Assembly (NCBI GenBank): GCA_018240435.1
Contig: JAFEFT010000054.1
Span: 1-60,225, forward strand
Reading direction: 5' to 3'
Source: Pseudomonadota bacterium
Lineage (GTDB): Bacteria > Pseudomonadota > Gammaproteobacteria > Xanthomonadales > Xanthomonadaceae
DNA: 60,225 nucleotides
The notes under the pieces were generated by a model. The model was not told where the DNA came from. It searched no databases and was given only the letters and a program-made list of their open reading frames with translations. Of the stretch, positions 17,152 through 60,139 are shown in pieces; the first letter of the stretch is position 1; each line of letters opens with the position of its first letter. The position numbers were made by a program, and so were the translations under genes.

Positions 17152-19773
17152 ATGTCTGAAGTAACCGTAAGCAACCTAGCCAAGATGGTCGGCACGCCGG
17201 TCGAGAAGCTGCTCGAGCAACTCGCCGAGGCGGGCATGACCTTCAGTGGCCCGGATCAGGTGGTGTCGAGCACCGAGAAGATGAAGCTGCTCGGTTTCCT
17301 GCGTCGCACCCACGGCAAGGGCGACAAGCCGGCCGAGGCGGCGGCGCCACGGCAGATCGTCCTGAACCGGCGCAAGCAGGAAGAGCTGACTGTCAGCAGC
17401 GGCAAGGCCAAGACCACGGTTACCGTGGAGGTGCGCAGCAAGCGCACGCTGATCAAGCGCGAGGCCGTCGAAACTCCAGTGGACGACGAGCGCGAGGAGG
17501 TGCTGCGCAAGCTGGAGGAATCGCGCAAGCTCAATCAGGCCGAGCAGCAGGCGCTGGCCGAGATCGATCGCAAGCGCCGCGAGGAAGAAGCCGCTCGCCG
17601 CGAGGTCGAGGAAGCGGCGCGCCGCGAGCGCGAGCAGGCCGCCGCGGCCGCCCAGGCGCTCGCCGAGGAATCGATCGAATCGCCGCCGCCGGACAAGGCC
17701 GCGGGCAGGAGTCACGGTGCTGCCGAAGTGCGGCACCGCGAATCGGCGCGGGAGCCGCAGCGCGAGGCGCCGCGAGACAGCGCCCGCGACGCCAAGGCCG
17801 GGCACAAGAAGCCCCATCATCGCGGCACGCATGCGATGCCGGCCGAACTGGACGACAACGATCCGGCCAGCCGCTTCTCCAGCCAGTTGCATCTGACCGA
17901 CGCCGAGCGCGCTCGCCGTGGTGCCGGCAAGCGCAAGCCGCGGCCGCGCCTGGTTGAGGCCAGTCGGCAGGCCAGCGGGCAGCACGGCTTTGCACGCCCG
18001 ACCGCGCCAGTGCAGCGCGAAGTGGCGATCGGCGAGAGCATTTCGGTGGCCGACCTGGCGCAAAAGCTTGCGCTCAAGGGCGGCGAGGTGGTCAAGGCGC
18101 TGTTCAAGATGGGCACCATGGTCACCATCAACCAGGTGATCGACCACGACACCGCTGCGCTGGTGGTCGAGGAACTCGGCCACAAGGCAGTCACCGCGGC
18201 CGCCAACGACGCCGAGTCGGCGTTGCTGGCGCACGGTGAGGAAGCCCAGCAGGGCGATCGCCTGGCGCGTCCGCCGGTGGTCACCATCATGGGCCACGTC
18301 GACCACGGCAAGACTTCGCTGCTCGATTACATCCGTCGCACCAAGGTTGCCCACGGCGAAGCCGGCGGCATCACCCAGCACATCGGCGCCTACCACGTGG
18401 AGACGTCGAAAGGCACCATCAGCTTCCTCGACACGCCCGGGCATTCGGCGTTTTCGTCGATGCGCGCGCGTGGCGCCAAGCTGACGGATATCGTGGTGCT
18501 GGTGGTCGCCGCCGACGATGGCGTGATGCCGCAGACGATCGAGGCGGTGCAGCACGCGCGCGCCGCGAACGTGCCGCTGATCGTGGCGATGAACAAGATG
18601 GACAAGGCCGAGGCCAAGCCCGACGTCATCAAGCAGGGGTTGTCGAACGTCGACGTGCTGGCCGAGGACTGGGGCGGCGAGGTGCAATTCGTGCCGGTGT
18701 CGGCCAAGACCGGCATGGGTGTCGATGCGCTGCTCGACGCCATCCTCGTGCAGGCCGAGATGATGGAGCTCACCGCCGTGCGCGACGCGCGGGCATCGGG
18801 CGTGGTGATCGAGTCGAGCCTCGACAAGGGCCGCGGCCCGGTCGCCACCGTGCTGGTCCAGCAAGGCACGCTCAAGAAGGGCGACTACCTCGTCTGCGGC
18901 GTGCAGTATGGCCGCGTGCGTGCGTTGTTCGATGAAACGGGCAAGCAGGTCGAGGCCGCCGGACCGTCGATTCCGGTGCAGGTGCTGGGCCTGTCGGGCG
19001 TGCCCGACGCCGGCGACGATTTCACCGTCGTCGCCGACGAGCGCCTGGCCAAGGACGTCGCGCAGCAGCGCGACGCCAAGCGGCGCGAATCGCGTCTGGT
19101 CAGCCAGGTCGGCAGCCGCATGGAAGACATCATGGCGCAGATGGGCCAGGGCGCCGGCCAGCTCTCGCTGGCGCTGGTGGTCAAGGCCGACGTGCACGGT
19201 TCGGTGCAAGCCTTGCGCGAGGCGCTGGTGGCGCTGTCCAACGAGGCGATCCGGATCAACGTGATCTCCTCTGGCGTGGGCGGCATCACCGAGTCGGATG
19301 CGCAGCTGGCGGCGGCATCCAAGGCCGTGATCATCGGCTTCAACGTCCGCGCCGATGCGTCCGCGCGCAAGGTGATCGAATCCAACGGGCTGGATCTGCG
19401 CTATTTCTCGATCATCTACGACGTGATCGATCAGGTGAAGCAGGTGGCGTCGGGTCTGCTCGGCAAGGAGATCCGCGAGGAGATCCTCGGCACCGCCGAG
19501 GTCGCACAGGTGTTCCGCCACTCCAAGTTCGGCGCGATCGCCGGCAGCACCGTCGTCGAAGGCGTCATCCGCCGCGGCAAGCCCGTTCGCGTGCTGCGCA
19601 ACAACGTGGTGATCTTCGAGGGCGAGCTCGATTCGTTGCGCCGCTTCACCGAAAACGTCGACGAGGTCAAGTCGGGCACCGAATGCGGCATCGGCGTCAA
19701 GGGCTACGATCAGGTCAAGCCGGGCGATCAGATCGAGTGCTTCGATCGGATCGAGATCCAGAGGACGCTGTGA
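17152..19773 (+). CDS. infB: Translation initiation factor IF-2
   Basis: An 873-residue GTPase that places initiator tRNA on the ribosome. The N-terminus has the IF2_N fold ([19 protein letters not shown]), then a long charged Arg/Glu/Ala linker (about 90-290) and a second IF2_N module. The G domain has G1 GHVDHGKT (about 381-388), G3 DTPGH and G4 NKMDKAE, with the IF-2 beta-barrel domains behind (ending [20 protein letters not shown]). GGGAA precedes the ATG. The TGA stop at 19771-19773 forms the first bases of a heptamer array. Gene order nusA-infB-rbfA-truB is conserved in gammaproteobacteria. Confidence 0.97.
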
Positions 19774-19826
19774 ATCGGGAATCGGGAATCGGGAATCGGG
19801 AATTGTGAATCGTGAATCGTGATTGG
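19771..19826 (+). repeat. Heptamer array GGAATCG (8 units) starting at the infB stop codon
   Basis: Eight 7-base units: TGAATCG, GGAATCG three times, GGAATTG, TGAATCG twice, TGATTGG. The first unit contains the infB stop codon. Units vary at the first and last positions only, so the array is degenerate but keeps period 7 exactly. Confidence 0.9.
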
Positions 19827-19866
19827 CAATGACGGGCAAGCCGTGGCGTCGATGTCGGTCGAATCA

Positions 19867-19971
19867 CCAAACGCCAAACGCCAAACGCCAAACGCCAAAC
19901 GCCAAACGCCAAACGCCAAACGCCAAACGCCAAACGCCAAACGCCAAACGCCAAACGCCAAACGCCAAACA
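19867..19971 (+). repeat. Heptamer array CCAAACG (14 perfect copies plus one imperfect)
   Basis: Fourteen identical copies of CCAAACG run from 19867 to 19964, then CCAAACA. The array is 29 bases before the rbfA start and 41 bases after a different heptamer array. Since 21 bases make a full frame cycle, all frames stay open through it on both strands, giving spurious repetitive reading frames. It is the most homogeneous array in the window, so it is probably young or copy-number variable. Confidence 0.95.
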
Positions 19972-19999
19972 CCTGACATCGCAATCACCAATCACGGCC

Positions 20000-20404
20000 A
20001 TGAGCAAACCATTCCACCGCACCGATCGCGTCGCCGCGCAGTTGCGGCGCGAGTTGGGCACGCTGGTGCATGCGCTGGTGCGCGAGCACGGGCTGCCGTC
20101 GGTGAGCGTTTCGGATGTCCAGGTCAGCCGCGACATGGCCCATGCCAAGGTGTTCGTCACTGCCTTGCAGCCCGATCGCGTGCGCGAGGCGATGGCCGGT
20201 CTCAAGGAATACGCAGGCGAAGTGCGGTTTTCGCTGGCGCGGGCGATGAAGCTGCGCCATGTCCCCGAGTTGCACTTCCACTACGACGATTCGGTGGATC
20301 GCGGCGAGCGGATCGATTTGCTGCTGCGCGACGACGTGGCCCGCGAATCGGGAATCGGGAATCGGGAATCGGAAAAGCAGCCTCCCGACGGCTCGGATTC
20401 CTGA
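20000..20404 (+). CDS. rbfA: Ribosome-binding factor A (C-terminus encoded by heptamer repeat)
   Basis: A 134-residue cold-shock and 30S maturation factor with a KH-like fold. It begins [19 protein letters not shown] and has [20 protein letters not shown] and [19 protein letters not shown], the family core. ATG 20000 is chosen by homology; longer frames upstream read through the CCAAACG array and are not real. No clear ribosome binding site is seen. The last 20 or so residues ([21 protein letters not shown]) are unusual: codons 115-124 lie in four GGAATCG repeat units, so the array has become coding and moved the stop. Confidence 0.92.
20344..20371 (+). repeat. Heptamer array GGAATCG (4 units) inside the 3' end of rbfA
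   Basis: CGAATCG followed by three GGAATCG units, the same unit as the array after infB. It is translated as part of RbfA ([10 protein letters not shown]). Confidence 0.9.
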
Positions 20405-20508
20405 TCCGATGCGTCCCTCGGCTTGATCCCTCACGCACTACCCGTCGATTTCCGAAACCGCGTCTTGCGACGTCCATCCCGCAGCTTGCCCGAAGCAGGG
20501 ACGTGATC

Positions 20509-21462
20509 ATGCGCTTCTCCGATTCGCGATTCCCGATTGCCCATTCCCGTCGAGCGCTACACGGCCTCGTGTTGCTCGACAAAGCGACCGGCCTCAGCTC
20601 CAACCAAGCGCTGCAACAGGTGCGTCGCTTATTCCGCGCGGAAAAGGCCGGGCACACCGGCAGTCTCGACCCACTCGCTACTGGCCTGCTGCCGATCTGC
20701 TTCGGTGAGGCGACCAAGATCGCCGGCATCTTGCTCGGCGAGGCCAAGGCCTACGAGACGTTGGCGCGGCTCGGGACGACCACCGACACCGACGACGCCG
20801 ATGGCACGGTGCTGCGCGAACGCCCGCTGCCGGTGCTCGACGAGGCCACGCTGGAGGCCGCGCTGGCGCCCTTGCGCGGGCGCATCCGGCAGCGGCCGCC
20901 GATCTACGCTGCGCTCAAGCAAGGCGGCGAGCCGCTGTACGCCAAGGCGCGCCGGGGCGAGGTCGTGGCGGTGGCCGAGCGCGACGTCCTCGTGCATCGG
21001 CTCCAATGCAGCGAGCGCGGCGCCGACTGGCTGCGCTTGCAGGTGGAATGCGGCAGCGGCACCTATGTGCGCAGTCTGGTGCGCGATCTGGGCGAGGCGC
21101 TGGGCTGCGGGGCGCATGTGGCGGAACTGCGGCGGCTGTGGGTCGAGCCGTTTCGCGCGCCGCGGATGCATGCCCTCGACGACTTGCGGGCACTGGCCGA
21201 GCGCGACTCCGACGCGCTCGACGCCTGCCTGTTGCCGATCGAAGCCGGGCTGGCCGGCTTGCCGGCCGTTGCGCTCGACCGCGAGCAGGCGCGCCGCCTG
21301 GCGCAAGGTCAGGCGCTGCGCCTGGGCACGATGGTGGGCGCGGGCACGGTAGCGGCATTCGGCGAGGACGGGCGCGCGCTCGGTTTGGCGCAGATCGATG
21401 CCGTCGGCGTGTTGCGCGCGCAACGTTTGTTCGTCTGGGCGACGACATCGGCTGCCTGCTGA
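20509..21462 (+). CDS. truB: tRNA pseudouridine(55) synthase TruB (N-terminus encoded by heptamer repeat)
   Basis: A 317-residue enzyme converting U55 of tRNAs to pseudouridine. The conserved start [19 protein letters not shown], the catalytic motif [19 protein letters not shown] (Asp nucleophile) and [21 protein letters not shown] are all present, with a PUA-like C-terminal domain. The only suitable start is ATG 20509, with AGGG 8 bases before it. The first 14 residues ([14 protein letters not shown]) are encoded by four degenerate GATTC-type heptamers, the reverse complement of the array at the end of rbfA. In most gammaproteobacteria rpsO follows truB; here cmk follows instead. Confidence 0.94.
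20519..20546 (+). repeat. Heptamer array CCGATTC (4 degenerate units) inside the 5' end of truB
   Basis: Units CCGATTC, GCGATTC, CCGATTG, CCCATTC. This is the reverse complement of the GGAATCG type found at the other end of the same intergenic interval. Confidence 0.75.
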
Positions 21463-21484
21463 CGGCGGCCGCGACGCGGGAGCT

Positions 21485-21597
21485 CCGACTCCCGACTCCC
21501 GAGTCACCATCCACCAATCACGATTCACCATTCACCATTCACCATTCACCATTCACCATTCACGATTCACGATTCACAGCCTCCCGCCTCCCGAGTC
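21485..21597 (+). repeat. Heptamer array between truB and cmk (about 16 units, ACCATTC core)
   Basis: The period is 7 throughout. Units are CCGACTC twice, CCGAGTC, ACCATCC, ACCAATC, ACGATTC, ACCATTC five times, ACGATTC twice, then ACAGCCT and, one base out of step, CCGCCTC and CCGAGTC. It begins 23 bases after the truB stop and fills most of the gap to cmk. A TACAAT at 21602-21607 just after it could serve as a -10 for cmk. Confidence 0.9.
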
Positions 21598-21637
21598 GCC
21601 CTACAATGACGATTTCCCGCAGGCCCCCTCCCCAGGC

Positions 21638-22321
21638 ATGGACGCGATCATCCCGGTATTGACCATCGACGGCCCCTCGGGCTCGGGCAAGGGCACCATC
21701 AGCCGCATCGTGGCGGCGCGGCTGGGTTGGCATTATCTGGATTCGGGGGCGCTGTATCGGGTGGTTGGTTACGCCGCTGGCCGCGATCGTGCCGATGTCG
21801 CCGATCCGGCGGCGATGGCGGCGTTGGCGGCGCGGGTCGGCATCCGCTTCGTCACCGACCGCGACGCCGAGCCGCGGGTGCTGGTCGATGGCGTCGATGC
21901 CACCGATGCCATCCGCACCGAAACGGCCGGTGCCGCCGCCTCGGTGATCGCGGCGATGCCGCCGGTGCGGCAGGCATTGCTGGAGCGACAGCGCGATTTT
22001 CGCCAGCCGCCGGGCCTGGTCGCCGACGGCCGCGACATGGGTACCGTGGTTTTCCCGGATGCCCCGTGCAAGGTCTTCCTGACCGCCAGCGCCGGGCAGC
22101 GCGCGCAAAGACGCCATAAGCAGTTGAAGGAAAAAGGACTTTCCGTTAACATGGCCGATCTGCTGCGTGACATCCTCGCCCGCGATGCGCGCGATGCCGA
22201 ACGCGCCGTGGCGCCGCTCAAGCCCGCATCCGATGCGGTGCTGATCGACACCACCGACGTGCCGGTCGATCGTGTGGTCGAGCGCGTGCTGGCCGTGCTG
22301 CCCGCTTCCATCCGGGGCTGA
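21638..22321 (+). CDS. cmk: Cytidylate kinase
   Basis: A 227-residue (d)CMP kinase of nucleotide metabolism, cytosolic. The P-loop is [20 protein letters not shown] (about 9-28), followed by [19 protein letters not shown], the CMP-binding region ([20 protein letters not shown]) and the lid. ATG 21638 has only a weak ribosome binding site; the reading frame upstream is repeat sequence. The order cmk-rpsA-ihfB is conserved in gammaproteobacteria and fits here. Confidence 0.95.
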
Positions 22322-22362
22322 AGGCTGCGCGCACGAGTGGGATGCAAGGCGGCAGTACCGTG

Positions 22363-22389
22363 CCGCGGCCAAGGGTGGCCGCGGATTTT
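22363..22389 (+). terminator. Hairpin with short T-run between cmk and rpsA
   Basis: CCGCGGCC-AAGGGT-GGCCGCGG is a perfect 8-bp stem followed by ATTTT at 22385-22389. It is a weak intrinsic terminator or an attenuator in the rpsA leader. A second small stem (GGCGC/GCGCC) follows at 22402-22415, and TATACA at 22438-22443 may be a -10 for rpsA. Confidence 0.5.
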
Positions 22390-22477
22390 CCTCAACCAAC
22401 AGGCGCGCACGCGCCGCACAAGGGTGGGCCGCTGCCTTATACAGCGTGGCCCGTGTGTTCAACCGAGAAATCAACCC

Positions 22478-24154
22478 ATGACCGAATCATTCGCAGAACT
22501 GTTCGAACAGAGCCAGCAGACGATCGCCAAGCTCAAGCCCGGCAGCATCGTCGTCGGCACCATCGTCGAGGTCCGTCCCGACGTCGTGGTCATCAATGCC
22601 GGCCTGAAATCCGAAGGCATCGTGCCGATCGAGCAGTTCCGTACCGACGCCGGCGTGCTCGACGTGAAAGTCGGCGAGCAGGTCAAGGTCGCCCTGGAAT
22701 ACATCGAAAACGGCTTCGGCGAGACCGTGCTGTCGCGCGAGAAGGCCAAGCGTTCGATGGTGTGGGACGAACTGGAAGAAGCGCTGACCGCCAACGCCAC
22801 CATCACCGGCCGCATCAGCGGCAAGGTCAAGGGCGGCTTCACGGTCGACATCAAGGATGTCCGCGCCTTCCTGCCCGGTTCGCTGGTCGATGTGCGCCCG
22901 GTGCGCGATCCGGCCTACCTCGAAGGCAAGGAGCTCGAATTCAAGCTCATCAAGCTCGACCGCAAGCGCAACAACGTGGTCGTTTCCCGCCGCGCCGTCG
23001 TCGAGTCCGAGCACTCCGAGGAGCGCGAGCAGCTGATGGACAAGCTGGTCGAGGGCGCCGTGCTCAAGGGCGTGGTCAAGAACCTCACCGACTACGGCGC
23101 GTTCGTCGACCTCGGCGGCATCGACGGCCTGCTGCACATCACCGACATGGCGTGGAAGCGCGTGCGCCATCCGTCCGAAGTGGTCAACGTCGGCGATGAG
23201 CTCGACGTGCGCGTGCTCAAGTACGACCGCGAGCGCAACCGCGTCAGCCTCGGCCTCAAGCAGCTCGGCGACGATCCGTGGGACAACATCACCCGTCGCT
23301 ATCCGAACGGCGCCCGCCTGTTCGGCAAGGTTTCCAACGTCACCGATTACGGCGCCTTCGTCGAGATCGAGCCGGGCGTCGAAGGCCTCGTGCACGTGTC
23401 CGAGATGGACTGGACCAACAAGAACGTCAACCCGTCGAAGATGGTGCAGGTCGGCGACGAGGCGCAGGTCATGGTGCTCGACGTCGACGAAGAGCGCCGC
23501 CGCATTTCGCTGGGCATGAAGCAGTGCCAGCCGAACCCGTGGGAAGCCTTCGCCGCCATGCACAACAAGGGCGACAAGGTGTCCGGCCAGATCAAGTCGA
23601 TCACCGACTTCGGCATCTTCATCGGCCTGGACGGCGGCATCGACGGCCTGGTGCACCTGTCGGACATCTCGTGGAACTCCACCGGCGAGGATCTGGCACG
23701 CAACTTCAAGAAGGGCGACACCCTCGAAGCGGTGGTGCTGGCGGTCGATCCCGAGCGCGAGCGCATCTCGCTCGGCGTCAAGCAGCTCGAACAGGATCCG
23801 TTCGGCCAGTTCATGGCCGCGCACCCGAAGGGCAGCGTCCTCAAGGGCACGGTGAAGGAAGTCGATGCCCGCGGTGCCGGCATCGATCTGGGCCAGAACA
23901 TGGAGGGCTACATCCGCGCCTCCGACATTGCCAAGGAGCGCATCGACGACGCCAGCCAGCACCTGAAGGTCGGCGACGAGATCGAAGCCAAGTTCATCGG
24001 CATGGATCGCAAGGGGCGGGTGTTGCAGCTGTCGATCCGCGCCAAGGACGAGGCCGAGCAGCAGGCGGCGATCGAGGAATACTCGCAGTCGGCGCATACC
24101 GGCACGACCACCCTCGGCGCCTTGCTGCGTGAGAAGATGAACCGCGGCGAGTGA
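22478..24154 (+). CDS. rpsA: 30S ribosomal protein S1
   Basis: A 558-residue mRNA-binding ribosomal protein made of six S1 domains. Repeated signatures are visible: [80 protein letters not shown]. Its length matches E. coli S1 (557). The start at 22478 is preceded only by a weak GAGA; a poor Shine-Dalgarno is also typical of E. coli rpsA, whose translation S1 represses. The 156-base leader holds two hairpins that could take part in such control; that is inference. The last residues ([16 protein letters not shown]) match the family's end. Confidence 0.97.
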
Positions 24155-24200
24155 GGCGGGTTGCGAGTCCTTGCTTGCGAGTTTCGAGTTGAAGGCAGGG

Positions 24201-24233
24201 CGCCGGCTCGCGGGGCATTCCCGCGGGCCGGCG
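24201..24233 (+). other. Strong GC hairpin downstream of rpsA
   Basis: CGCCGGC-T-CGCGGG pairs with CCCGCG-G-GCCGGCG around a short GCATT loop. It lies 47 bases after the rpsA stop and has no T-run. It may protect the rpsA mRNA end or separate it from ihfB. Confidence 0.5.
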
Positions 24234-24347
24234 TAGTCGCACGCTGCGGCCCGATGCGTCGTCCGGGCTGCAGCGCATCCGCCCCACGGCGCCGCCGCCA
24301 TCGATTCGATCCCGTCGATCGCAATCGCTTCCAGCTACCGTCGACCG

Positions 24348-24382
24348 CTCACGACTCACACCTCACACCTCACAACTCACAC
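24348..24382 (+). repeat. Heptamer array CTCACAC (5 units) before ihfB
   Basis: Units CTCACGA, CTCACAC twice, CTCACAA, CTCACAC, ending 14 bases before the ihfB start. A looser period-7 pattern (TTGCGAG, TCCTTGC, TTGCGAG, TTTCGAG) lies at about 24159-24188, directly after rpsA. Confidence 0.8.
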
Positions 24383-24396
24383 CGCAGCGTCCCCGC

Positions 24397-24696
24397 ATGA
24401 CCAAGTCCGAACTCATCGAATTGCTCGCCCAGCGGCAGGCGCACTTGAGCGCCGCCGACGTCGATCTGTCGGTCAAGACCATGCTGGAAATGATGAGCGA
24501 CGCGCTCAGTCGCGGTGATCGCATCGAGATCCGCGGCTTTGGCAGTTTCTCGCTGCATTACCGGCCGGCGCGGATCGGTCGCAACCCCAAGACCGGCGAT
24601 GCGGTGGCACTGACCGGCAAGCACGTGCCGCATTTCAAGCCGGGCAAGGAATTGCGCGAACGCGTGAACCTGCCGCGAGCCGAAGCGACGCGTTGA
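24397..24696 (+). CDS. ihfB: Integration host factor subunit beta
   Basis: A 99-residue HU/IHF-family DNA-bending protein. It begins [19 protein letters not shown] and has the family signature [20 protein letters not shown] with RNPKTGD and [17 protein letters not shown]. The N-terminus and position after rpsA identify the beta subunit. With IhfA (not in the window) it bends DNA at specific sites in transcription, replication and recombination. No clear Shine-Dalgarno is seen before the ATG; the region just upstream is a heptamer array. Confidence 0.96.
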
Positions 24697-24751
24697 CGGC
24701 GCGACCGCGGCTCGGCCAAGCTTGGCCACTCTTCGCGGCCGATCCGGACCC

Positions 24752-24997
24752 ATGCAAGTCTTCCTGCAAGTGTTGCTGGCGCTGGCCTTCGTCGCCGCCG
24801 GCGTGCTGTTCGGCGCCTTCAATCCGCAGCCGGTGATCGTCGATTTTCATCTGTTCCAGTGGCACGCCGGGCTGGGCGTGGCCTTGCTGAGCGCGCTGTT
24901 GCTGGGCGCCGTGCTGGGTGGCGTGGCGGTGAGCGTGGGCATCGTCTGGCCGCTGCGGCGGCGCCTGCGCAAGCTGGCGCGCGCGAGCGCGTCGTGA
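24752..24997 (+). CDS. lapA: LapA family inner-membrane protein
   Basis: An 81-residue protein with two membrane helices (VFLQVLLALAFVAAGVLFGAF and VALLSALLLGAVLGGVAVSV) separated by NPQPVIVDFHLFQWHAG, followed by a basic tail (RRRLRKLARASAS). This matches LapA/YciS, the partner of LapB in controlling LPS synthesis by LpxC turnover. It sits between ihfB and lapB, 13 bases before lapB, as in E. coli. ATG 24752 gives the family's usual N-terminus; the frame is open for ten codons before it. Confidence 0.87.
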   Translation: MQVFLQVLLALAFVAAGVLFGAFNPQPVIVDFHLFQWHAGLGVALLSALLLGAVLGGVAVSVGIVWPLRRRLRKLARASAS

Positions 24998-25010
24998 TGG
25001 CGGTGGGCGC

Positions 25011-26189
25011 ATGAGCGCGACCTGGCTGCACTACCTGCCGATCCTGCTGCTGCCGGTGGCGGCGCTCAGCGGCTGGTACGCCGGTCGTCGCGGCGGCGCA
25101 TTGCAGACCGGCCGGCGCGTGCGGCGATTGTCCAGCACCTATTTCCGCGGCTTGAACTATCTGCTCAACGAGCAGCCGGACAAGGCGATCGAGCTGTTCC
25201 TGCAACTGCCCGAGGTCGACAAGGACACCGTCGAGACGCAGTTTTCGCTGGGCTATTTGTTTCGTCGCCGGGGCGAGGTCGATCGCGCCATCCGTTTGCA
25301 TCAAGGCCTGATCGCCCGTGGCGGTCTGAGCGAGGAGCAGCGCCGCTACGCGATGCTCGAACTGGGCGAGGACTACATGCGCGCCGGCTTGCTCGATCGC
25401 GCCGAGACCTTGTTCACCGATCTGGTGCAGGCCGCCGTTTCGGTGCCGCAGGCGTTGCGCCATCTGATCTCGATCTATCAGGCCGAGCGCGACTGGGACA
25501 AGGCGATCGCGCATGCGCGCAGCTTCGAGGACGCCACCGGCGAGCCGATGGGCGTGCTGATCGCGCAGTTCCAGTGCGAACTGGCCGAACAGGCGCGCCT
25601 GCAGGGCGATCAGGAGACCGCGCGGGCGCGCATCGCCGATGCCCTCGTGGCCGATCCGCACAGCACGCGCGCCGGCATCCTCGAAGGCCAGATCGAACTG
25701 GCCGCAGGCAACGATGCCGCCGCCATCCGCGCCTTCGAACGGGTGCCACGGCAGGACATCGACTATCTGCCCGAGGTGCTGCAACCCTTGCTCGATGCCT
25801 ATCGGCGCGGTCATGACACGGCGCGCGCCCGCGCCTTCCTGGCCGAGATGGTCGAACGCTATCCGGGCGTCGCCCCGGTGCTCGCGCTCAGCCGCATCGT
25901 GCGCGAGGAGGAAGGGGTCGAGGCGGCGCGCAAGTTCGTTGCCCGGCAAGTCCGGCAGCGGCCGTCGGTGCGCGGTCAGGCGACGCTGATCGATCTGGGC
26001 ATGGAAGCGCCCGGCGATGCCTCGGCGACGCTGGCCCAGATCAAGCAGATCTCCGATCAGCTGCTGGTGCGGGCGCCGGCCTATCGCTGCAATCGCTGCG
26101 GCTTCGGCGCCCGCGCCCACCATTGGCAATGTCCGAGCTGCAAGAACTGGGGCACCATCCGCCCGCAATACAACCTGCTGGGCGAATGA
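25011..26189 (+). CDS. lapB: Lipopolysaccharide assembly protein LapB
   Basis: A 392-residue protein with an N-terminal membrane anchor (LPILLLPVAALSGWYAGR), about nine TPR-like helical repeats (GLNYLLNEQPDKAIELFLQL begins the series) and a C-terminal rubredoxin-type zinc module with two CxxC pairs (YRCNRCGFGARAHHWQCPSC). In E. coli LapB presents LpxC to the protease FtsH and so sets LPS output. The stop overlaps the next start (ATGA). Confidence 0.94.
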   Translation: MSATWLHYLPILLLPVAALSGWYAGRRGGALQTGRRVRRLSSTYFRGLNYLLNEQPDKAIELFLQLPEVDKDTVETQFSLGYLFRRRGEVDRAIRLHQGLIARGGLSEEQRRYAMLELGEDYMRAGLLDRAETLFTDLVQAAVSVPQALRHLISIYQAERDWDKAIAHARSFEDATGEPMGVLIAQFQCELAEQARLQGDQETARARIADALVADPHSTRAGILEGQIELAAGNDAAAIRAFERVPRQDIDYLPEVLQPLLDAYRRGHDTARARAFLAEMVERYPGVAPVLALSRIVREEEGVEAARKFVARQVRQRPSVRGQATLIDLGMEAPGDASATLAQIKQISDQLLVRAPAYRCNRCGFGARAHHWQCPSCKNWGTIRPQYNLLGE

Positions 26190-30008: not shown

Positions 30009-30032
30009 GCAGCCGCCGACGCGCGCGAGGCA

Positions 30033-35189: not shown

Positions 35190-35252
35190 GATGGCGACAG
35201 GGTGGATGGCGACAGGGCTTGATGGCGACAGGGTTTGATGACGACAGGGTCT
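35190..35252 (+). repeat. Four tandem 15-16 bp repeats before zipA
   Basis: Units GATGGCGACAGGGTG, GATGGCGACAGGGCTT, GATGGCGACAGGGTTT, GATGACGACAGGGTCT. Each holds an ATG and an AGGG, so the array offers serial start codons and ribosome binding sites. The final AGGG serves the zipA ATG at 35256. Confidence 0.88.
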
Positions 35253-35255
35253 GGC

Positions 35256-47434: not shown

Positions 47435-47556
47435 TTCTGCTGGCGCTCACTCGCCGCTCACCCGCTGCCGATCGTCGCGCCCACGGCGGCCCCGCGAATT
47501 GCGGTCGACCCGCGTGGCCGCTTTGCGCGCGCCTTTCGTTTCCGTAGGCGATTCGT

Positions 47557-47609: not shown

Positions 47610-47634
47610 CCAAGGCCCTTGGGGAGTGAGCATC

Positions 47635-52668
<5,034 letters not shown>

Positions 52669-52670
52669 CC

Positions 52671-52733
52671 GGGAGTCGGAAATCGGGAATCGGGAAGCGG
52701 GCACTCGGAACGCGGAACTCGGGCCTCGGGATG
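52671..52733 (+). repeat. Degenerate heptamer array after the alpha-2-macroglobulin stop
   Basis: Nine 7-base units beginning two bases after the TAG stop: GGGAGTC, GGAAATC, GGGAATC, GGGAAGC, GGGCACT, CGGAACG, CGGAACT, CGGGCCT, CGGGATG. The first four resemble the infB-type unit; the rest have drifted. Confidence 0.8.
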
Positions 52734-52791
52734 ACGGCAGGGAAGACGTGCTGGTGTTTGCCAACTCGCGCGCCGCGGTGGTCGAAGCATC

Positions 52792-52815
52792 CCTTCCCCC
52801 GCTCGCGGGGGAAGG
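52792..52815. repeat. REP-like palindrome before pbpC
   Basis: CCTTCCCCCGC-TC-GCGGGGGAAGG is a perfect 11-bp inverted repeat. It shares CCCCCGC/GCGGGGGAAGG with the first hairpin of the cluster at 10529-10550. Confidence 0.75.
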
Positions 52816-52842
52816 TCAGGATGGGGGCGTGTCCGATCGCAA

Positions 52843-55266: not shown

Positions 55267-55365
55267 CCGGCGCGGCATTGTCCGTCTCGCCCACGGGCTC
55301 GTCGCCGCTGGCATTTGTTGACGAACGATCGGCTAGAATCATCGGGCCGGCCCGGAGGACGAGGC

Positions 55366-56262
55366 GTGCCAGCGAAGGATGATCCGATCACCAATACCGA
55401 GCGCCACACCGTGGTCGAGGCCACGCGCCCGCTCGTTGGCACGACCCGGCCGCGGCTGGTGGTGGTCAGCGGCATGCTGCTGGGCCTGCAGATGGATCTG
55501 GGCGACGCGCCGATCGTGGTCGGGCGCGCGTCCGACTGCGCGATCGCGATCCCGCATCCGAGCGTGTCGCGCAATCATTGCCGCTTCTGGCGTGAAGACG
55601 GTGCGTTCTGGATCGAGGATCTGGGCTCGACCAACCACACCTATCTCAACGGCGTCCAGGTCACGCGCGCGCAACTGCGCGATGGCGACCAGATCGGCGT
55701 CGGCGGCAACGCCATCAAGTTCTTCGTCGGCGCCAGCCTCGACGCGACGTACCACGCCGAACTGATCGACCTGGCGATCTACGACAGCCTCACCGGCTTT
55801 TTCAATCGCCGCCACTTCTGCGCCGTGCTCGACGAGGAACTGGCCAAGACCGCCGACGGTGCGCCGCTGAGCGTGTTGATCGTCGATCTGGATCTGTTCA
55901 AGCAGATCAATGACCGCCACGGCCATCCGGTCGGCGACCAGGTGCTGGCGACGGTGGCGCGGGTGATGCGCGAGCGCACCCCGGGCGAGTTCGTGATCGG
56001 ACGCCTGGGCGGCGAGGAGTTCGCCGTGCTGCTGCCGGGCCAACTGCGCGAGGCGGCGGCGAATCTGGCCGAAACCCTGCGCGCGGCCGTCGCCGCGCAT
56101 CCGGTGGAAGCGGCCGGGCTGGCCCTGCCGATCACCGTCAGCATCGGCGTGGCCCAGGCCGACGCGCATGAGCGCTCACGCGGGCACCTGCTCAAACTGG
56201 CCGACGATCAGCTCTATCGCGCCAAACAGGAAGGGCGCAATCGGGTGTGCGTGGCAGCGTGA
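55366..56262 (+). CDS. Diguanylate cyclase with N-terminal FHA domain
   Basis: A 298-residue cytosolic signalling protein. Residues about 40-115 form an FHA phosphothreonine-binding domain (VGRASDCAIAI, SVSRNHCRF, GSTNHTYLNGV). Residues about 140-298 form a GGDEF domain with an intact active site GGEEF (RLGGEEFAVLLPG) and the substrate segment DLDLFKQINDRHGHPVGD, so it should make cyclic di-GMP from GTP. No membrane or receiver domain is present; input is presumably a phosphorylated protein partner bound by FHA. GTG 55366 has GGAGG 7 bases upstream, which decides the start. Confidence 0.92.
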   Translation: MPAKDDPITNTERHTVVEATRPLVGTTRPRLVVVSGMLLGLQMDLGDAPIVVGRASDCAIAIPHPSVSRNHCRFWREDGAFWIEDLGSTNHTYLNGVQVTRAQLRDGDQIGVGGNAIKFFVGASLDATYHAELIDLAIYDSLTGFFNRRHFCAVLDEELAKTADGAPLSVLIVDLDLFKQINDRHGHPVGDQVLATVARVMRERTPGEFVIGRLGGEEFAVLLPGQLREAAANLAETLRAAVAAHPVEAAGLALPITVSIGVAQADAHERSRGHLLKLADDQLYRAKQEGRNRVCVAA

Positions 56263-56284
56263 GGGCGGTGGCTGGCGCGCGGGT

Positions 56285-56932
56285 TCAATGCGCCGCCGGG
56301 GAATTCGCGGCCGGCGCGATCTCCAGTTCGAAGCCGCACACCTTGGGTGGGAAGCGGGCGAGGATCGGCAACGTCGAGGTGAACGCGGCATCGCCTTCCG
56401 GGTAGCCCTTGGGCTGGCGACCGCCGGGGAACTCGGGCGGGCACAGCACCACGCCGCTGGCATGACGCAGCCTTCCGCCATGCCAGTCGGAGACGCGGCC
56501 GCCGTAATCCCAATTGAAACCGGTGAAGGTGAACGGCTTGAGGTTGCGTGCCGCCAGTTCGGCGCTGGTCAGGCCCATGTGGACGTTCTCGGGCGTTCGC
56601 CAGCGCGAACCGCGGTCGCGCACCGCCAGCGTGCCCGGATGTTTCCCCTGTTCGTCGAGATAGACGTAGATGCGGCGCTTGGGGTCCTTGGGGTGGATGA
56701 TCCAGCCGGGCTCGGTGTCCTCGGCGCCGGGCACCTCGCCGGCGATGACATGGTCCTGGCCCAGGCGTTGTCGCAGCGTCGCCAGGGTGTCGTTGCCGCG
56801 AACGGTGGTCGCATCGTAGGTCTGGAAGTCGGCCTCGACAGCGGTCTTGCCGGTGTCGGGCCCGGCGCTGGCCGCGGCGGCGGCGAGCAAGGCCAGGGCG
56901 ATGGAGATCGCCGTGATCGGTCGTGCGTGCAT
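56285..56932 (-). CDS. Exported protein of unknown function, coupled to the EF-G-like gene
   Basis: A 215-residue protein with a signal peptide (ITAISIALALLAAAAASA, cleavage near residue 23); I do not recognise the family. Features are GWIIHPKDPKRRIYVYLDEQ, RTPENVHMGLTSAELAARNL, FTGFNWDYGGRVSDWHGGRL and two cysteines (VVLCPPEF, KVCGFELE) that could form a disulfide. The central part is rich in aromatic and charged residues, suggesting a compact periplasmic beta domain. It starts 4 bases after the stop of the EF-G-like gene, whose final codons supply GAGG as the ribosome binding site. The pairing with a translation-factor gene is unexplained. Confidence 0.75.
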   Translation of the reverse strand: MHARPITAISIALALLAAAAASAGPDTGKTAVEADFQTYDATTVRGNDTLATLRQRLGQDHVIAGEVPGAEDTEPGWIIHPKDPKRRIYVYLDEQGKHPGTLAVRDRGSRWRTPENVHMGLTSAELAARNLKPFTFTGFNWDYGGRVSDWHGGRLRHASGVVLCPPEFPGGRQPKGYPEGDAAFTSTLPILARFPPKVCGFELEIAPAANSPAAH

Positions 56933-56936
56933 CGCC

Positions 56937-58988
56937 TCATTCCTCTTCGTGCTTGGGTTTCCACGCCTCGACGAGGTGCCTTTGCACGTTCGCCGGGGCC
57001 GGTTCGTAGTGGCTGAAATCGAGGCTGTAACGGCCGCGGCCGGCGGTCAGGCCCTTGAGTTCGGCGGCATAGCCTTCCAGTTCGGACAGCGGCACCTGCG
57101 CCTTGACGATGATCTCGTCGCCGCCGCCGCTGTCGGTGCCGTTGATGCGCGCGCGCTTGCCGGCCAGGCCGCCGGTGATGTCGCCCATGTGCCGCTCGGG
57201 TGCTGATACTTCGACGATCACGATTGGTTCGAGCACCTGCGGTGCCGCCTTGGCGATCGCATCAAGAAAGGCCTTCTTGCCGGCAGTGACGAAGGCGACT
57301 TCCTTCGAGTCGACGTCGTGGTATTTGCCGTCGTACACGATCACGCGCACGTCCTGCAGCGGATAACCGGCGATGGCACCGCCGTCGAGCACCTGGCGCA
57401 CGCCTTTTTCGACGGCCGGGATGAACTGGCCGGGGATCGTGCCGCCCTTGACCGCATCGACGAATTCGAAGCCACCGCCACGCGGCAGCGGCTCGATGCG
57501 CAGATAGACTTCGCCGAACTGGCCGGCGCCGCCGGTCTGCTTCTTGTGGCGATGATGGCCTTCCGCCTTGGCCGACACCGTCTCGCGATAGGCGATGCGT
57601 GGCGGGTGCGATTTCACCTCGACGCCGTAACGCGCCTTCATGCGCTCGAGCATCACCCGCAGGTGCAACTCGCCGAGGCCGCGAATCACCGTTTCGTTGG
57701 TTTCCTTGTGATGCTCGACGTGGAAGCAGGGGTCTTCTTCGGCCAGCCGTGCCAGCGCCGTCGAAAGTTTCTGTTCCTGCCCGCGGGTGGCCGCTTCGAT
57801 CGCCAGCCCGAACATCGGCTTGGGGAAGAAGTGCGGCTTGAGATGGATGTGATCCTCGTCGTGCGAATCGTGCAGCACGGCGTCAAAGTGGATCTCCTCG
57901 ACCTTGGCCACCGCCACGATGTCGCCGGGGATGGCGTGCTCGATCTCGACGTGATCCTTGCCCTTGAGCTTGAACAGATGGCCGACCTTGAACGGCTTCT
58001 TGCCGTCGTCGATGAACAACTGACTGTCGCGGCGGATCGTGCCCTGGTACAGGCGCAGCACCGACAGCTTGCCGACGAACGGATCGTTGACGATCTTGAA
58101 CACGTCGGCGATGACGTGCAGGGATGGATCGGGCTGGGCGAGGATCGCCTGCGCCTGCTCGCCAATGCCCTTGACGAACGGCGGCGGGTTGGCTTCCGCC
58201 GGATTGGGCAGCAGCCGTGCGGCGATGTCCAGCAACGCCTTGACGCCGGCGCCGGTGCGCGCCGAGGTGAAGCAGATCGGCACCAGATGGCCCTCGCGCA
58301 GGCATTGCTCGAAGGCGTCGTGCAGTTCCTGCGGGCCGAGGCCTTCCTCGCCCAGGTCGAGGTAGTGGTCCATCACCGTTTCGTTGATCTCGACCACCTG
58401 ATCGATGATCTTCTGGTGCCACGGTGCCACCGGGCCGAGGTCGGATTGCCCGTCAGGCTGGAAGAAACAGTCGACGACGTCGCGCCCGCCGTTGCAGGGC
58501 AGGTTGATCGGCAGGCAGATGCTGCCGAATGCTTCACGCAGGGCATCGAGCAGGGCGGCCGGGTCGGCGCCGTCGGCATCGATGCGGTTGACCACGAGCA
58601 TCCGCGAGCGCTCGCGCTGGGCGGCGCGATCCATCATCCGCCGGGTTGAATGTTCGATGCCGGTGACCGCGTTGACGACGATCGCGCAGGTTTCCACCGC
58701 ATCGAGCGCCGACAGCGTCGGGCCGCGAAAATCGGCATAGCCGGGGGTGTCGAGCAGGTTGATGTGAATATCGCCGTGATCGATCGCGGCGATCGCGGTG
58801 TTGAGCGAATGCTGGCGCTCGCGCTCCATCGGGTCGTGGTCGGATACGGTGTTGCCGCGTTCGATGCTGCCTACCGCCTGGATGGTGCCGCCGGCATGCA
58901 GCAGGGCTTCGAACAGGGTGGTCTTGCCGGCGCCGTTGTGGCCCACGAGGGCGATGTTGCGGATCTGCGATGGCGATAGGGCGGGCAT
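56937..58988 (-). CDS. Elongation factor G-like GTPase
   Basis: A 683-residue protein with all five EF-G domains, but diverged from canonical EF-G. G1 is GHNGAGKT (16-23), G3 is DTPGYADF with Tyr84 where EF-G has the catalytic His (DTPGHVDF), and G4 is NRID (134-137) instead of NKMD. Domain IV and V signatures remain (GAGQFGEVYLRIEPLPRGGG, ITGGLAGKRARINGTDSGGG). Such EF-G-like (EF-G2) paralogues occur in several phyla; their role is unclear and some do not catalyse normal translocation. The main fusA, expected in the str operon, is not in this window. AAGGAG lies 7 bases before ATG 58988. Confidence 0.9.
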   Translation of the reverse strand: MPALSPSQIRNIALVGHNGAGKTTLFEALLHAGGTIQAVGSIERGNTVSDHDPMERERQHSLNTAIAAIDHGDIHINLLDTPGYADFRGPTLSALDAVETCAIVVNAVTGIEHSTRRMMDRAAQRERSRMLVVNRIDADGADPAALLDALREAFGSICLPINLPCNGGRDVVDCFFQPDGQSDLGPVAPWHQKIIDQVVEINETVMDHYLDLGEEGLGPQELHDAFEQCLREGHLVPICFTSARTGAGVKALLDIAARLLPNPAEANPPPFVKGIGEQAQAILAQPDPSLHVIADVFKIVNDPFVGKLSVLRLYQGTIRRDSQLFIDDGKKPFKVGHLFKLKGKDHVEIEHAIPGDIVAVAKVEEIHFDAVLHDSHDEDHIHLKPHFFPKPMFGLAIEAATRGQEQKLSTALARLAEEDPCFHVEHHKETNETVIRGLGELHLRVMLERMKARYGVEVKSHPPRIAYRETVSAKAEGHHRHKKQTGGAGQFGEVYLRIEPLPRGGGFEFVDAVKGGTIPGQFIPAVEKGVRQVLDGGAIAGYPLQDVRVIVYDGKYHDVDSKEVAFVTAGKKAFLDAIAKAAPQVLEPIVIVEVSAPERHMGDITGGLAGKRARINGTDSGGGDEIIVKAQVPLSELEGYAAELKGLTAGRGRYSLDFSHYEPAPANVQRHLVEAWKPKHEEE

Positions 58989-59247
58989 TGGGGTGCTCCT
59001 TGGCAATGGGGAGCCGGCCGGCGCGCGAGCGCGCGGCGCGGGCAGGTCAAGCATACGCCGCAGGTCGTCGTCGGCAAGGCAAACCGTGATGGCCGTCGCA
59101 GGTTCTGCGCCCGCCGACGATGGCGCTGGCGGCCGGGCTGTCGCGCGCCTGAACGCATGCATACGGATGCGGATGGATTCAGCCTGCGGACACCGTGCCT
59201 GCCCCAGCATCTGTGCGAACGCAATGGTGCGTCTCGGGGGGAACGAC
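58989..59247. other. Divergent intergenic region
   Basis: These 259 bases lie between the EF-G-like gene and the Gly-rich gene. I see no gene, strong promoter or hairpin beyond the two ribosome binding sites (AAGGAG for the EF-G-like gene; GGGGGAA for the other). Confidence 0.3.
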
Positions 59248-60081
59248 ATGAAACGTTTGATCGCGACTTCGCTGGTTCTGCTGCTGGGCGCTGCCGCCGG
59301 TACGGCGCTGGCCAATCCGCAAGATCGTGGCTTCGCACCGGCCGGTGGACATGGCTGGAACCAGGGCAACCCGCCGCGCGGCACCTATGACCGTGGCGGA
59401 TGGAATCGCGGCAACGGCGCCTGGAATGGCGGCAATCGCGGCAATGGCGGGCAGTGGAGCGGTGGCAACGGCAACCACGGCGGCAACGGCCCGTGGAACG
59501 GCGGTGGCAATCACGGCGGCAACGGCCCATGGAACGGTGGTCACGGCTATCCGGGTGGGTGGAACCAAGGTCGCTGGAATCGCGGCGGCTGGTACGGCGG
59601 CGGTTGGTATCGCGGCGGCTGGTACGGCGGTGGCTGGTATCGCGGCGGTTGGTACGGCGGCGGGTATGGCTGGCCGCGCTATCGTTCCGGCTACGTCAGC
59701 GTGAACATCGGCGCGCCGTATTACTACGGCTCCGGGTACTACTACCCGTCTTCGTATTACTACGGCGGCCCGGCGTATTCCGGCGCCGGCTATTACGGGG
59801 CGGACGATGGCTACGACGGCGGCTACGACACCGGCTACGACGGCGCGCCGGCGTATGGATACGACGCGCGGTACGGCTGCCCGCCGGGCAGCGCGCGCGT
59901 CGTCCGGCGCGACAACTCCGGCGCCAAGCTGCTCGGCGCGGTCATCGGTGGTGCGCTTGGCAACACCGTCGGCAAGGGCGATGGGCGTGCCGCGGCCACG
60001 GTTGCCGGCGCCGCGATCGGTTATGGCGTCGCCGCCGACGCGACCCGTGATCGCGGCTACGAGGTCGATTGCGGGTACTGA
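59248..60081 (+). CDS. Gly/Trp/Tyr/Asn-rich exported protein with C-terminal glycine zipper
   Basis: A 277-residue protein with a signal peptide (LIATSLVLLLGAAAGTALA). Then comes a low-complexity region: Asn/Gly/Trp-rich (residues about 35-110), a five-residue period GGWYR/GGWYG (about 112-135), and a Tyr-rich stretch (YYYGSGYYYPSSYYYGG). The C-terminus has a glycine-zipper (Rick_17kDa-like) hairpin, LLGAVIGGALGNTVGKGDGR and AAATVAGAAIGYGVAADATR, likely to insert in or associate with a membrane, with two cysteines flanking it. The start at 59248 has GGGGGAA upstream. Function is unknown; an outer-membrane or surface-associated role is plausible. Confidence 0.85.
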   Translation: MKRLIATSLVLLLGAAAGTALANPQDRGFAPAGGHGWNQGNPPRGTYDRGGWNRGNGAWNGGNRGNGGQWSGGNGNHGGNGPWNGGGNHGGNGPWNGGHGYPGGWNQGRWNRGGWYGGGWYRGGWYGGGWYRGGWYGGGYGWPRYRSGYVSVNIGAPYYYGSGYYYPSSYYYGGPAYSGAGYYGADDGYDGGYDTGYDGAPAYGYDARYGCPPGSARVVRRDNSGAKLLGAVIGGALGNTVGKGDGRAAATVAGAAIGYGVAADATRDRGYEVDCGY

Positions 60082-60083
60082 GC

Positions 60084-60139
60084 AGAGGACAGAGGACAGA
60101 GGACAGAGGACAGAGGACAGAAGACAGAAGACAGAGGAC
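60084..60139 (+). repeat. Heptamer array AGAGGAC (8 units) after the Gly-rich gene
   Basis: Five copies of AGAGGAC, two of AGAAGAC and one more AGAGGAC, starting 2 bases after the TGA stop. This is the last of the period-7 arrays; its unit differs from all others in the window. Confidence 0.92.

Follow-up and report, generated by a model that had tools for sequence, protein, structure and literature searches.

The spacers between bacterial genes are known to contain tandem repeats with a period of seven bases. In the part of the SPADE survey drawn on here, heptamers are the most abundant intergenic tandem repeats across a wide range of prokaryotes and give no clear clue to function (PMC6344855). 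The GGGNATC repeats of Xanthomonas and Nostoc are quadruplex-forming (Rehm et al., 2015; PMC4692102). The sections of that paper used here treat GGGAATC and GGGGAYT, place the repeats within ~50 bp past stops in sense orientation or before starts in antisense orientation, report convergent pairs and positions kept between species while length and sequence change, and refer to a 2007 simple-repeat paper and to Calothrix heptanucleotides. Two further systems are comparable in the parts of their descriptions used here: the TAACTGA repeats of Beggiatoaceae, tandem intergenic 7-mers near start codons (PMC4679880), and the (GATAGRA)n of Chloroflexus, heptamer-derived satellites of one species (PMC6749651). 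PMC4060949 contained no match to heptamer or Xanthomonas terms, and no paper on covarying arms or on heptamer arrays with many units in the family studied here stood out among the matches listed, which covered titles and abstract starts and had subscription papers outside their range.

We analyzed a stretch of 60,225 nucleotides from a member of the Xanthomonadaceae (GenBank assembly GCA_018240435.1, contig JAFEFT010000054.1), hereafter the window, in which a first-pass annotation had listed a scattered set of heptamer arrays. The listed arrays exist, at or a few bases from where they had been placed. The relevant features are given below; Pfam domain assignment in the window covered six genes.

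17152-19773, + strand: infB (IF-2), assigned with Pfam
19770-19830, + strand: GGGAATC/GTGAATC array, the G-rich arm, overlapping the infB stop codon (period scan and arm analysis)
19860-19980, - strand: long, drifted array of CCAAACG units (G-rich strand: GGCGTTT) that includes a stretch of 14.9 perfect copies
19982-19995, - strand: two CAATCAC units directly 5' of the rbfA start, the outermost part of the right arm (read directly)
20000-20404, + strand: rbfA, assigned with Pfam, with an array-encoded tail beyond the RbfA domain, which spans residues 7-109 of 134
20335-20375, + strand: GGGAATC array in the 3' end of the rbfA coding region, left arm of the rbfA-truB pair
20509-21462, + strand: truB, longest frame, assigned with Pfam; array-encoded residues precede the domain, which begins at residue 39
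20520-20548, - strand: CCGATTC array forming the right arm of the rbfA-truB pair, at the 5' end of truB in its longest frame
21480-21577, - strand: CCGACTC, then ACCATTC, then ACGATTC units in a single 7-bp register, upstream of cmk
21638-22321, + strand: cmk (cytidylate kinase), assigned with Pfam
24344-24386, - strand: CTCACAC/CTCACAA array upstream of a called start codon
52665-52730, + strand: drifted CGGGAAT array, running on from the stop codon of a gene for a bacterial alpha-2-macroglobulin
60075-60148, + strand: CAGAGGA (ACAGAGG) array directly after a stop codon
60144-60160, + strand: conserved block adjoining ACAGAGG arrays, matching GGTAGTCRGTAWTCAGT with two mismatches

Three arrays had been said to start within three bases of a stop codon, and they do: the array at 19770 overlaps the infB TGA (19771-19773), and those at 52670 and 60083 begin two positions past the end of a TAG (last base 52668) and of a TGA (last base 60081), respectively. 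Not every array is strictly intergenic: the one at 20345 is inside the 3' end of the rbfA coding region, and the one at 20519 falls within the 5' end of truB in its longest frame.

The main sample comprised 1,108,055 bp, 35% of the window's genome, and provided the unit, spacer and gene-pair counts, while degenerate-array, polarity and arm-match counts for this genome refer to its first 740 kb. Three further genomes (G001-G003) and 80 named loci were included; since all the named loci come from the surroundings of truB, a large share of what they show concerns a single junction, infB-rbfA. Sampling was non-random, with contigs chosen by size and known matches and three stretches of G002 chosen around GGGAATC matches. 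Gene edges were taken from our own codon-usage caller, and some of its starts are wrong.

At lag 7, the window contains 8 runs of at least 13 matched bases, compared with a mean of 0.0 in 20 third-order Markov sequences. The numbers at lags 5, 6, 8 and 9 are 1, 0, 0 and 2, both lag-9 runs falling in called genes, and lags 15, 16, 21, 24, 28 and 30 give one or two runs each. In the 1,108,055-bp sample, 68 noncoding arrays of at least three perfect copies were found at period 7 versus 10 at the other periods from 2 to 16 (three at 6, two at 8, one at 9, three at 14, one at 16, and none at 2-5, 10-13 or 15). Degenerate noncoding arrays in G001, G002 and G003 numbered 9, 17 and 9 at period 7 and 10, 10 and 5 at its double, 14; the remainder were one each at periods 13 and 16 in G001 and at 6 and 12 in G003, with none at 4, 5, 8, 9, 10 or 11. 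The 80 named loci contained 23 degenerate arrays at period 7, 12 at 14, two at 6 and one each at 8, 12 and 13. A period of seven is thus far commoner than 5, 6, 8 or 9 in the sampled genome and its relatives, as the first-pass annotation had anticipated, but its statement that the period never changes is too absolute: a 16-bp array occupies 35190-35249 in a spacer of the window. With one genome per species in the comparison, assembly breaks at arrays give no more than a hint of copy-number variation between strains or cells.

As had also been proposed, the units share no single sequence. Perfect runs of at least 18 bp in the 1.108-Mb sample represent 32 canonical units, some one substitution apart, of which ACAGAGG is the commonest (26 runs) and AATCGGG accounts for 19 runs; TAACTGA is absent from the 32. 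By period and location these arrays belong to the same class as the heptamers of the SPADE survey (PMC6344855), whose part used here does not analyze unit, polarity, arm matching or orthology, as is done below. They share period and intergenic site with the GGGNATC repeats, and the unit is common to the GGGAATC subset, which fits the GGGAATC/GGGANTN pattern; ACAGAGG lies outside the GGGNATC family. Unlike the TAACTGA repeats, described in the part of PMC4679880 drawn on as one fixed unit, mostly upstream of starts, with related heptamers rarely repeated, the arrays here have many units and occupy both gene edges.

The seven-base repeats are real, and they follow one placement rule irrespective of their letters. 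The G-rich strand begins at the gene edge and runs inward, with a G-rich arm after the upstream stop and a C-rich arm before the downstream start. Arrays were oriented by G minus C, which replaced purine content after the latter had left 15/69, 10/41 and 7/23 arrays unoriented. The 5' end of the G strand was nearer the gene edge in 53 of 64 oriented non-genic arrays of this genome (first 740 kb), 33 of 37 in G001-G003 and 26 of 28 in the named loci (112/129 in total), and it lay within 10 bp of the edge in 33, 27 and 17 arrays of the respective sets, as against 0, 1 and 0 for the 3' end. Array pairs within 300 bp in one spacer were convergent in 37 cases, in the same direction in 13 and divergent in none. 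Where a co-directional spacer held a single array, the three sets together gave 20 G-rich at the stop and 17 C-rich at the start, while the opposite placements were found 5 times (C-rich at the stop) and 0 times (G-rich at the start). A G-rich array was nearer the start in 3 of 39 multi-array co-directional spacers, one with a fully reversed order. Placement relative to genes is therefore far from random in the samples, as had been suspected. Together with the dominance of period 7 and the many units, this makes a generator that fixes the period and is indifferent to the letters reasonable; the seven-base template suggested at first may exist but is unnecessary.

The convergent pairing and G-strand position published for GGGNATC repeats are thus found for the arrays as a whole. 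For the GGGAATC arrays the agreement with the part of PMC4692102 used here, where gene-edge placement and convergent pairs are already published, extends to unit, place and pairing. Nevertheless, a role as G-quadruplex elements, which has been suggested for GGGAATC in Xanthomonas, is very unlikely for the arrays. Four or more G tracts are not present in all arrays, ACAGAGG, GTGAATC, GCGAGTT and GGCGTTT being free of GGG, and when oriented by purine content in the first 740 kb, GGACAGA and GTGAATC show the polarity in 15/19 and 10/11 arrays, compared with 7/11 for GGGAATC. Since units without GGG obey the same polarity, quadruplex formation cannot be the common factor and was ruled out as a common cause.

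The stem-loop potential of arrays downstream of stop codons would also suit transcription terminators, which are expected to be common in stop-stop spacers. In this genome, however, arrays are borne by 2 of 102 stop-stop spacers versus 44 of 399 co-directional ones. The contrast is weak in G001-G003 (2/41 vs 19/205), where stop-stop depletion is not significant (p 1.0); nor is co-directional enrichment in the 80 named loci (p 0.15). Several arrays moreover lie within the infB-rbfA-truB gene run. A role as terminators is hardly credible, and intrinsic terminators were rejected for want of abundance at convergent ends. Stop-stop spacers here rarely bear arrays, whereas the part of PMC4692102 drawn on puts 16% of repeats between convergent ORFs.

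Spacers with arrays in one species tend to bear arrays, with other units, in its relatives. Among gene pairs conserved between this genome and G001-G003, an array was present in both in 9 cases (six distinct junctions), in neither in 70, in this genome only in 3 and in G001-G003 only in 0. As an inner flank of GGGAATC/GTGAATC arrays, AAAAGCGG gave 20 matches in this genome, 3 of them array-adjacent; the reversed control gave 25. On visual inspection, arrays are often followed by AAAAGC, which occurs in the consensus of the infB-rbfA alignment A1, whose spacers are orthologous.

For the block that adjoins ACAGAGG arrays, 14 of the 16 matches have an array beside them on their own strand (two of these 14 overlap each other), compared with 2 matches for the reversed control pattern, and three ACAGAGG copies were found in 4 of 119 family genomes, all in this genus. 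The block at unlinked sites and the restriction to a single genus point to ACAGAGG having been carried, within this genus, from locus to locus as part of a compound sequence, comparable to (GATAGRA)n, for which the part of PMC6749651 used here does not describe the gene-edge rule seen in our arrays. The first-pass annotation had preferred one generating mechanism over a dispersed repeat, which is reasonable as far as the period is concerned and is not supported for ACAGAGG.

Such a block could mean that the arrays belong to a REP/MITE-like mobile element and were placed by transposition; the inverted arms resemble terminal repeats. By raw count, a REP-like palindrome lies within 80 bp of an array in 19 of the 37 copies sampled from this genome and in 13 of the 45 copies from G001-G003. 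The palindrome has no match in the 80 named loci, where arrays persist, and arrays are kept in orthologous spacers while their units change. Y1_Tnp (PF01797) gave no match at E 0.001 in this genome, the GGGAATC-richest of four near-complete members of the genus, while G001, G002 and G003 have 3, 2 and 2 (one interrupted) and the 71%-complete G004 has 0. Placement by transposition is accordingly quite unlikely, and a RAYT in the genome was ruled out as a requirement by the GGGAATC-rich genome without a PF01797 match.

The two facing arms of a spacer tend to resemble each other. Arms at most one substitution apart made up 10 of 16 pairs in this genome (first 740 kb; null 4.1), 8 of 11 in G001-G003 (null 2.3) and 10 of 10 in the named loci (null 4.9). 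A doubtful but serious reading takes a conserved intercistronic RNA stem-loop as the primary object, with arrays as one way to build it and pairing selection matching the arms. Predicted folds are strong, with z < -3 in 21 of 29 two-armed, 14 of 38 one-armed and 30 of 180 array-free spacers. On the other hand, a partner arm is missing from 20 of the 33 tested array-bearing co-directional spacers in this genome, and 2 of these 20 fold unusually well. Arm mismatches in 33 pairs (excluding pairs more than one substitution apart or scoring below 8) were G.U-compatible in 41 cases and A.C in 44 (8:17, 13:17 and 20:10 per set), which gives no overall sign of RNA pairing selection; genome-wide, the mismatches do not favour RNA pairing. 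Mirroring of variant units between arms was weak (43 pairs, mean z 0.59, median p 0.43, p <=0.1 in 8), in a set from which uniform right arms and pairs differing by over two substitutions had been dropped, and counts against both recent wholesale copying and strict base-pair selection.

Support for pairing comes from the infB-rbfA junction, where arrays occur in 21 of 83 gene pairs, in both orientations in 17. Units differ between species, and both arms change together. In 22 species, arm similarity was 19.2 within species and 12.5 across, a value reached in 0 of 10,000 permutations, and in 7 of the 22 an arm's own partner scored highest in its row; this test included only 45 of the 83 spacers, those of at least 40 bp, partly through wrong called starts. 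In A1, which holds 17 of the 22 periodic spacers, some trimmed (L037, L068, L076, L122 and the window are omitted), 48 double-change cells were counted versus 17.7 +/- 3.1 after shuffling and 9-16 after sliding, the structure being predicted from that alignment itself. Mismatches were G.U in 22 and A.C in 5 cases (column shuffle 27.1 and 13.3), a difference that is suggestive but not significant (p 0.18). In the window, the left arm has at its inner end GTGATTGG, to which the CAATCAC units at 19982-19995 are complementary (read directly). When four spacers were folded singly, the best fold of L007 differed from the arm-to-arm stem. When the left and right sides of non-periodic infB-rbfA spacers were compared, the median inverted-repeat score (7.0) did not exceed the mean after shuffling (7.8), although this score is blind to a compact stem wholly on one side, and by eye stem-like sequence of that kind lies just past the infB stop in several array-free species. 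Rfam 15 gave no match above the gathering score in window positions 17000-25000, the sole match (17.8 bits, cut-off 37) lying on the opposite strand within cmk. At the level of sequence comparison, a conserved stem at infB-rbfA is supported. Its likeliest job, if it has one, would be to separate or process neighbouring cistrons, for instance as a double-strand RNase site, a guess from position.

With moderate confidence, we favour a combined explanation in which seven-base slippage makes and renews the arrays, selection filters their orientation, facing arms are kept alike, those at infB-rbfA covary, and ACAGAGG has spread as a compound sequence. The arrays would form a family-wide heptamer class, mainly in spacers between co-directional genes, arising and lengthening by replication slippage of whole seven-base units, with point changes spreading along an array. 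Selection would act chiefly against G-rich repeats before start codons, which may be disfavoured as Shine-Dalgarno-like or quadruplex-prone. The arms would be kept alike either because one is copied from the other in a folded-back strand or, at some old junctions (infB-rbfA among them), because an intercistronic stem is selected for; with repeats as its building blocks, a stem could still pair after one arm gains or loses a unit. ACAGAGG, besides changing in place, would have moved between loci in this genus.

More tentatively, and with low confidence, these could be intercistronic stems made of interchangeable heptamer arrays, in which the unit is swappable and both arms are rewritten together by fold-back copying. 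Being made of repeats, the stem would tolerate units being added or lost, and it would persist even as species come to differ in its sequence; seven would be the preferred step of the copying machinery.

Compared with the published parts used here, we observed in addition unrelated units, including those without GGG, under one rule and mostly in co-directional spacers, matching facing arms, the apparent sequence spread of ACAGAGG, and covariation at infB-rbfA, which the sections of PMC4692102 drawn on do not report. Since unrelated units obey one rule, an explanation must act on period and strand and not on one motif. The work on Xanthomonas had linked heptamers to G-quadruplexes. With infB-rbfA as a conserved site at which the units on both arms change between species, the question becomes testable.

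Tandem repeats were analyzed in 1,108,055 bp of this 3.18-Mb, 71-contig genome, comprising the window and 54 other stretches from contigs chosen non-randomly by size and known hits, in partly sampled genomes of three relatives (G001-G003), and in 80 loci around truB from named species. The best named TruB match was that of Lysobacter tabacisoli (72%), and the remaining matches kept belonged mostly to Lysobacteraceae and related families. The heptamer arrays listed by the first-pass annotation were recovered from the window sequence, where 8 lag-7 runs of at least 13 matched bases were found; 20 sequences generated from a Markov model averaged 0.0. Period 7 also prevailed over the neighbouring periods: among noncoding arrays with at least three perfect copies in the 1,108,055 bp, 68 had period 7, while 0, 3, 2 and 1 had periods 5, 6, 8 and 9, respectively. 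With coding arrays included, the same threshold gave 74 arrays of period 7, nine of period 6, two of period 8, three of period 9 and two each of periods 3 (none noncoding) and 5, together with three of period 14 and one of period 16 (all noncoding) and none of periods 2, 4, 10-13 or 15. Noncoding lag autocorrelation in the first 740 kb of this genome peaked at 7, 14, 28 and 35; it was also high at multiples of three, which is explained by missed coding sequence. Unit sequences differed as described, with 32 canonical units in runs of at least 18 bp (coding included), although these do not amount to 32 independent inventions because some differ by one substitution. G001 is without any GGGAATC pair, yet it showed an excess at lags 7, 14 and 28 and nine noncoding heptamer arrays of other units.

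The annotation had further held that the period never changes and that all arrays lie at gene boundaries. Period 7 is dominant but not exclusive, as one window spacer carries a different array:

Window 35190-35249, spacer between two + strand genes: 16-bp tandem array GATGGCGACAGGGCTT, 3.8 copies

The array at 20345 lies in coding sequence, in the tail of rbfA beyond the domain, and the one at 20519 falls within the longest truB frame. A spacer in another stretch (L086, 5258-5304 onward) holds a 14-bp array, AAGGAGCAGGGACC, possibly a doubled heptamer, and repeats of 15, 30, 36 and 45 bp occur within a called gene at window 59470-59663.

Random placement relative to genes was not seen. Arrays outside genes that could be oriented were each assigned a direction by their G-richer strand, at a threshold of 16 of 21 (15 and 17 gave concordant results). 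The 5' end of that strand was the one nearer a gene edge for 53 of 64 arrays in the first 740 kb sampled here, for 33 of 37 in G001-G003 and for 26 of 28 in the named loci. Within 10 bp of an edge lay 33, 27 and 17 such 5' ends, compared with 0, 1 and 0 3' ends. Array pairs at most 300 bp apart in one spacer were convergent in 37 cases, in the same direction in 13 and divergent in none. When the three sets were summed, lone arrays in co-directional spacers were G-rich (20) or C-rich (5) at the stop, and C-rich (17) or G-rich (0) at the start. Of 39 multi-array co-directional spacers, 29 showed precisely the arrangement of G-rich at the stop and C-rich at the start; a G-rich array was nearer the start in three, one of which was fully reversed. 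Units without GGG followed the same polarity (GGACAGA 15/19, GTGAATC 10/11), as did GGGAATC (7/11), GGGACTC (2/3) and other units (5/6), as counted by purine-based orientation at threshold 17 in the first 740 kb. In array-free spacers G/C skew was lacking downstream of stops and slight upstream of starts (0.01 to 0.17); in array-bearing spacers it reached 0.2-0.5 within 30 bp of either edge.

Among the spacers of at least 20 bp in this genome, arrays were present in 44 of the 399 that are co-directional, in 6 of the 136 start-start ones and in 2 of the 102 stop-stop ones, with corresponding values of 19/205, 0/58 and 2/41 in G001-G003 and 18/475, 0/33 and 0/47 in the named loci. For spacers of 60-500 bp, the comparison of co-directional with all others gave p values of 0.001, 0.039 and 0.15 in the three sets, and that with stop-stop spacers only gave 0.04, 1.0 and 0.38. 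The preference for co-directional spacers is therefore firm here, and weaker in the other two sets.

The consensus units of convergent arms, the facing arrays of one spacer, were at most one base apart in 10/16, 8/11 and 10/10 pairs of the three sets, whereas arrays from other places in each set would predict 4.1, 2.3 and 4.9 such pairs. Matching in the named loci largely reflects one junction, because every locus surrounds truB. This junction, infB-rbfA, was surveyed at threshold 15 in 84 loci (the 80 named loci, L120, L121, L122 and the window), yielding 83 called gene pairs; 21 carried arrays, 17 of them in both orientations. Arrays were found in 1 of 79 pairs of infB with its preceding gene (putatively nusA, by position), in 6 of 79 rbfA-truB pairs, in 0 of 77 pairs of truB with a next gene other than cmk, and in 1 of the 2 truB-cmk pairs. 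The truB-cmk order (window 21462-21638) is shared by the window with a single other locus, from this genus, and is a local rearrangement; the gene after truB differs from cmk in the 77 other loci. Units at infB-rbfA vary among species (GGGAATC, GGGATTC, GGGACTC, GGGACCC, GTGATTC, GTGAATC/GTGAATG, GGGAGTG and others), and the two arms mostly agree. Across 22 species the arm score was 19.2 within and 12.5 across species (0/10,000 permutations as high), and left-arm and right-arm similarity correlated (rho 0.40; 0/2000 as high). RNAalifold on a 17-species alignment predicted 19 pairs, 11 with double changes, with 88.5% of 323 cells pairing. Double-change cells numbered 48, against 17.7 +/- 3.1 in shuffled (0/500 as high) and 9-16 in slid alignments, counts that relatedness inflates and that come from a structure derived from the same alignment.

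If pairing were selected in the transcript, G.U would be expected to exceed A.C mismatches. The counts were 41 and 44 in 33 co-directional arm pairs (8:17, 13:17 and 20:10 by set), and 58 each in local alignments scoring at least 18. At infB-rbfA they were 22 and 5 (binomial p 0.0015); composition shuffles gave 27.1 and 13.3, and against these the observed excess had p 0.18. Spacers of 60-320 bp were also folded with 60 array-free controls drawn per set: z was below -3 in 21/29 two-armed spacers (7/13, 4/6, 10/10 by set), 14/38 one-armed spacers (2/20 in this genome, 6/10, 6/8) and 30/180 controls. Four hand-chosen infB-rbfA spacers gave z of -8.0, -4.6, -10.7 and -4.6, the best fold of the fourth (L007) not being the arm-to-arm stem. 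The folding results support a predicted stem at some junctions and its absence at many arrays of this genome.

Comparison of 82 conserved adjacent gene pairs between this genome and the sampled parts of G001-G003 revealed an array in both for nine (six distinct junctions), only here for three, only there for none and in neither for 70. Reciprocal best hits had mean identities of 74%, 64% and 56%, a distance at which unconstrained spacer sequence would be hard to recognise; thus, array position appears to be kept while the unit letters change.

Many of the 30 ACAGAGG-type arrays of the own-genome sample have a common block beside them, GGTAGTCRGTAWTCAGT. Of the 16 matches to this block (at most 3 mismatches), 14 adjoin a same-strand array, two of the 14 overlapping each other; a reversed control pattern gave two matches. 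The block had no match in the G001-G003 samples. Among 119 genomes of the family, three GGACAGA copies are present in 4, every one of this genus, and three GGGAATC copies in 37, covering 18 of 46 genera. We read ACAGAGG as a younger dispersed family within an older class. At L153 185-232, in contig C21, a stretch of ~15 G beside a gene directly adjoins an ACAGAGG array; it may be an artefact of assembly or a different type of repeat. A REP-like palindrome, TCCTTCCCCCGCTTGCGGGGGAAGG, has 37 copies in the own sample (at most 4 mismatches; e.g., after L160:3916) and also lies after 728 of L133 in G002. Nineteen of the 37 have a heptamer array no more than 80 bp away, with one side and one strand favoured. 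A search of this genome for a Y1_Tnp gene found none.

Published work already describes the dominance of heptamers, their location between genes, their bias toward gene edges and the convergent pairing of GGGAATC arrays (PMC4692102; PMC6344855). Relative to the available text of these papers, it is new that the placement rule covers many unrelated units, that arms match and co-vary, that units are exchanged in orthologous spacers, and that one of the units is a compound specific to this genus.

The assembly is interrupted within or close to heptamer arrays at the starts of contigs C7, C8 and C21 and at window 60075-60148. Of the contig termini sampled, 3 of 21 starts and 1 of 3 ends had an array within 200 bp (0.017 expected per end), so that true array lengths are probably underestimated; such breaks agree with active length change. 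Very high mutation rates are stated, in the available text, for Xanthomonas citri typing repeats of up to 7 bp (PMC4045669), and an earlier proposal, as reported in the accessible part of PMC4692102, ascribes the number seven to the stretch of DNA that the polymerase holds. Alongside the observed period, polarity, context, arm matching, persistence of position with unit turnover and spread of one unit, arrays may change by slippage in steps of seven, selection may act against G-rich repeats ahead of starts, and some process would keep the arms alike.
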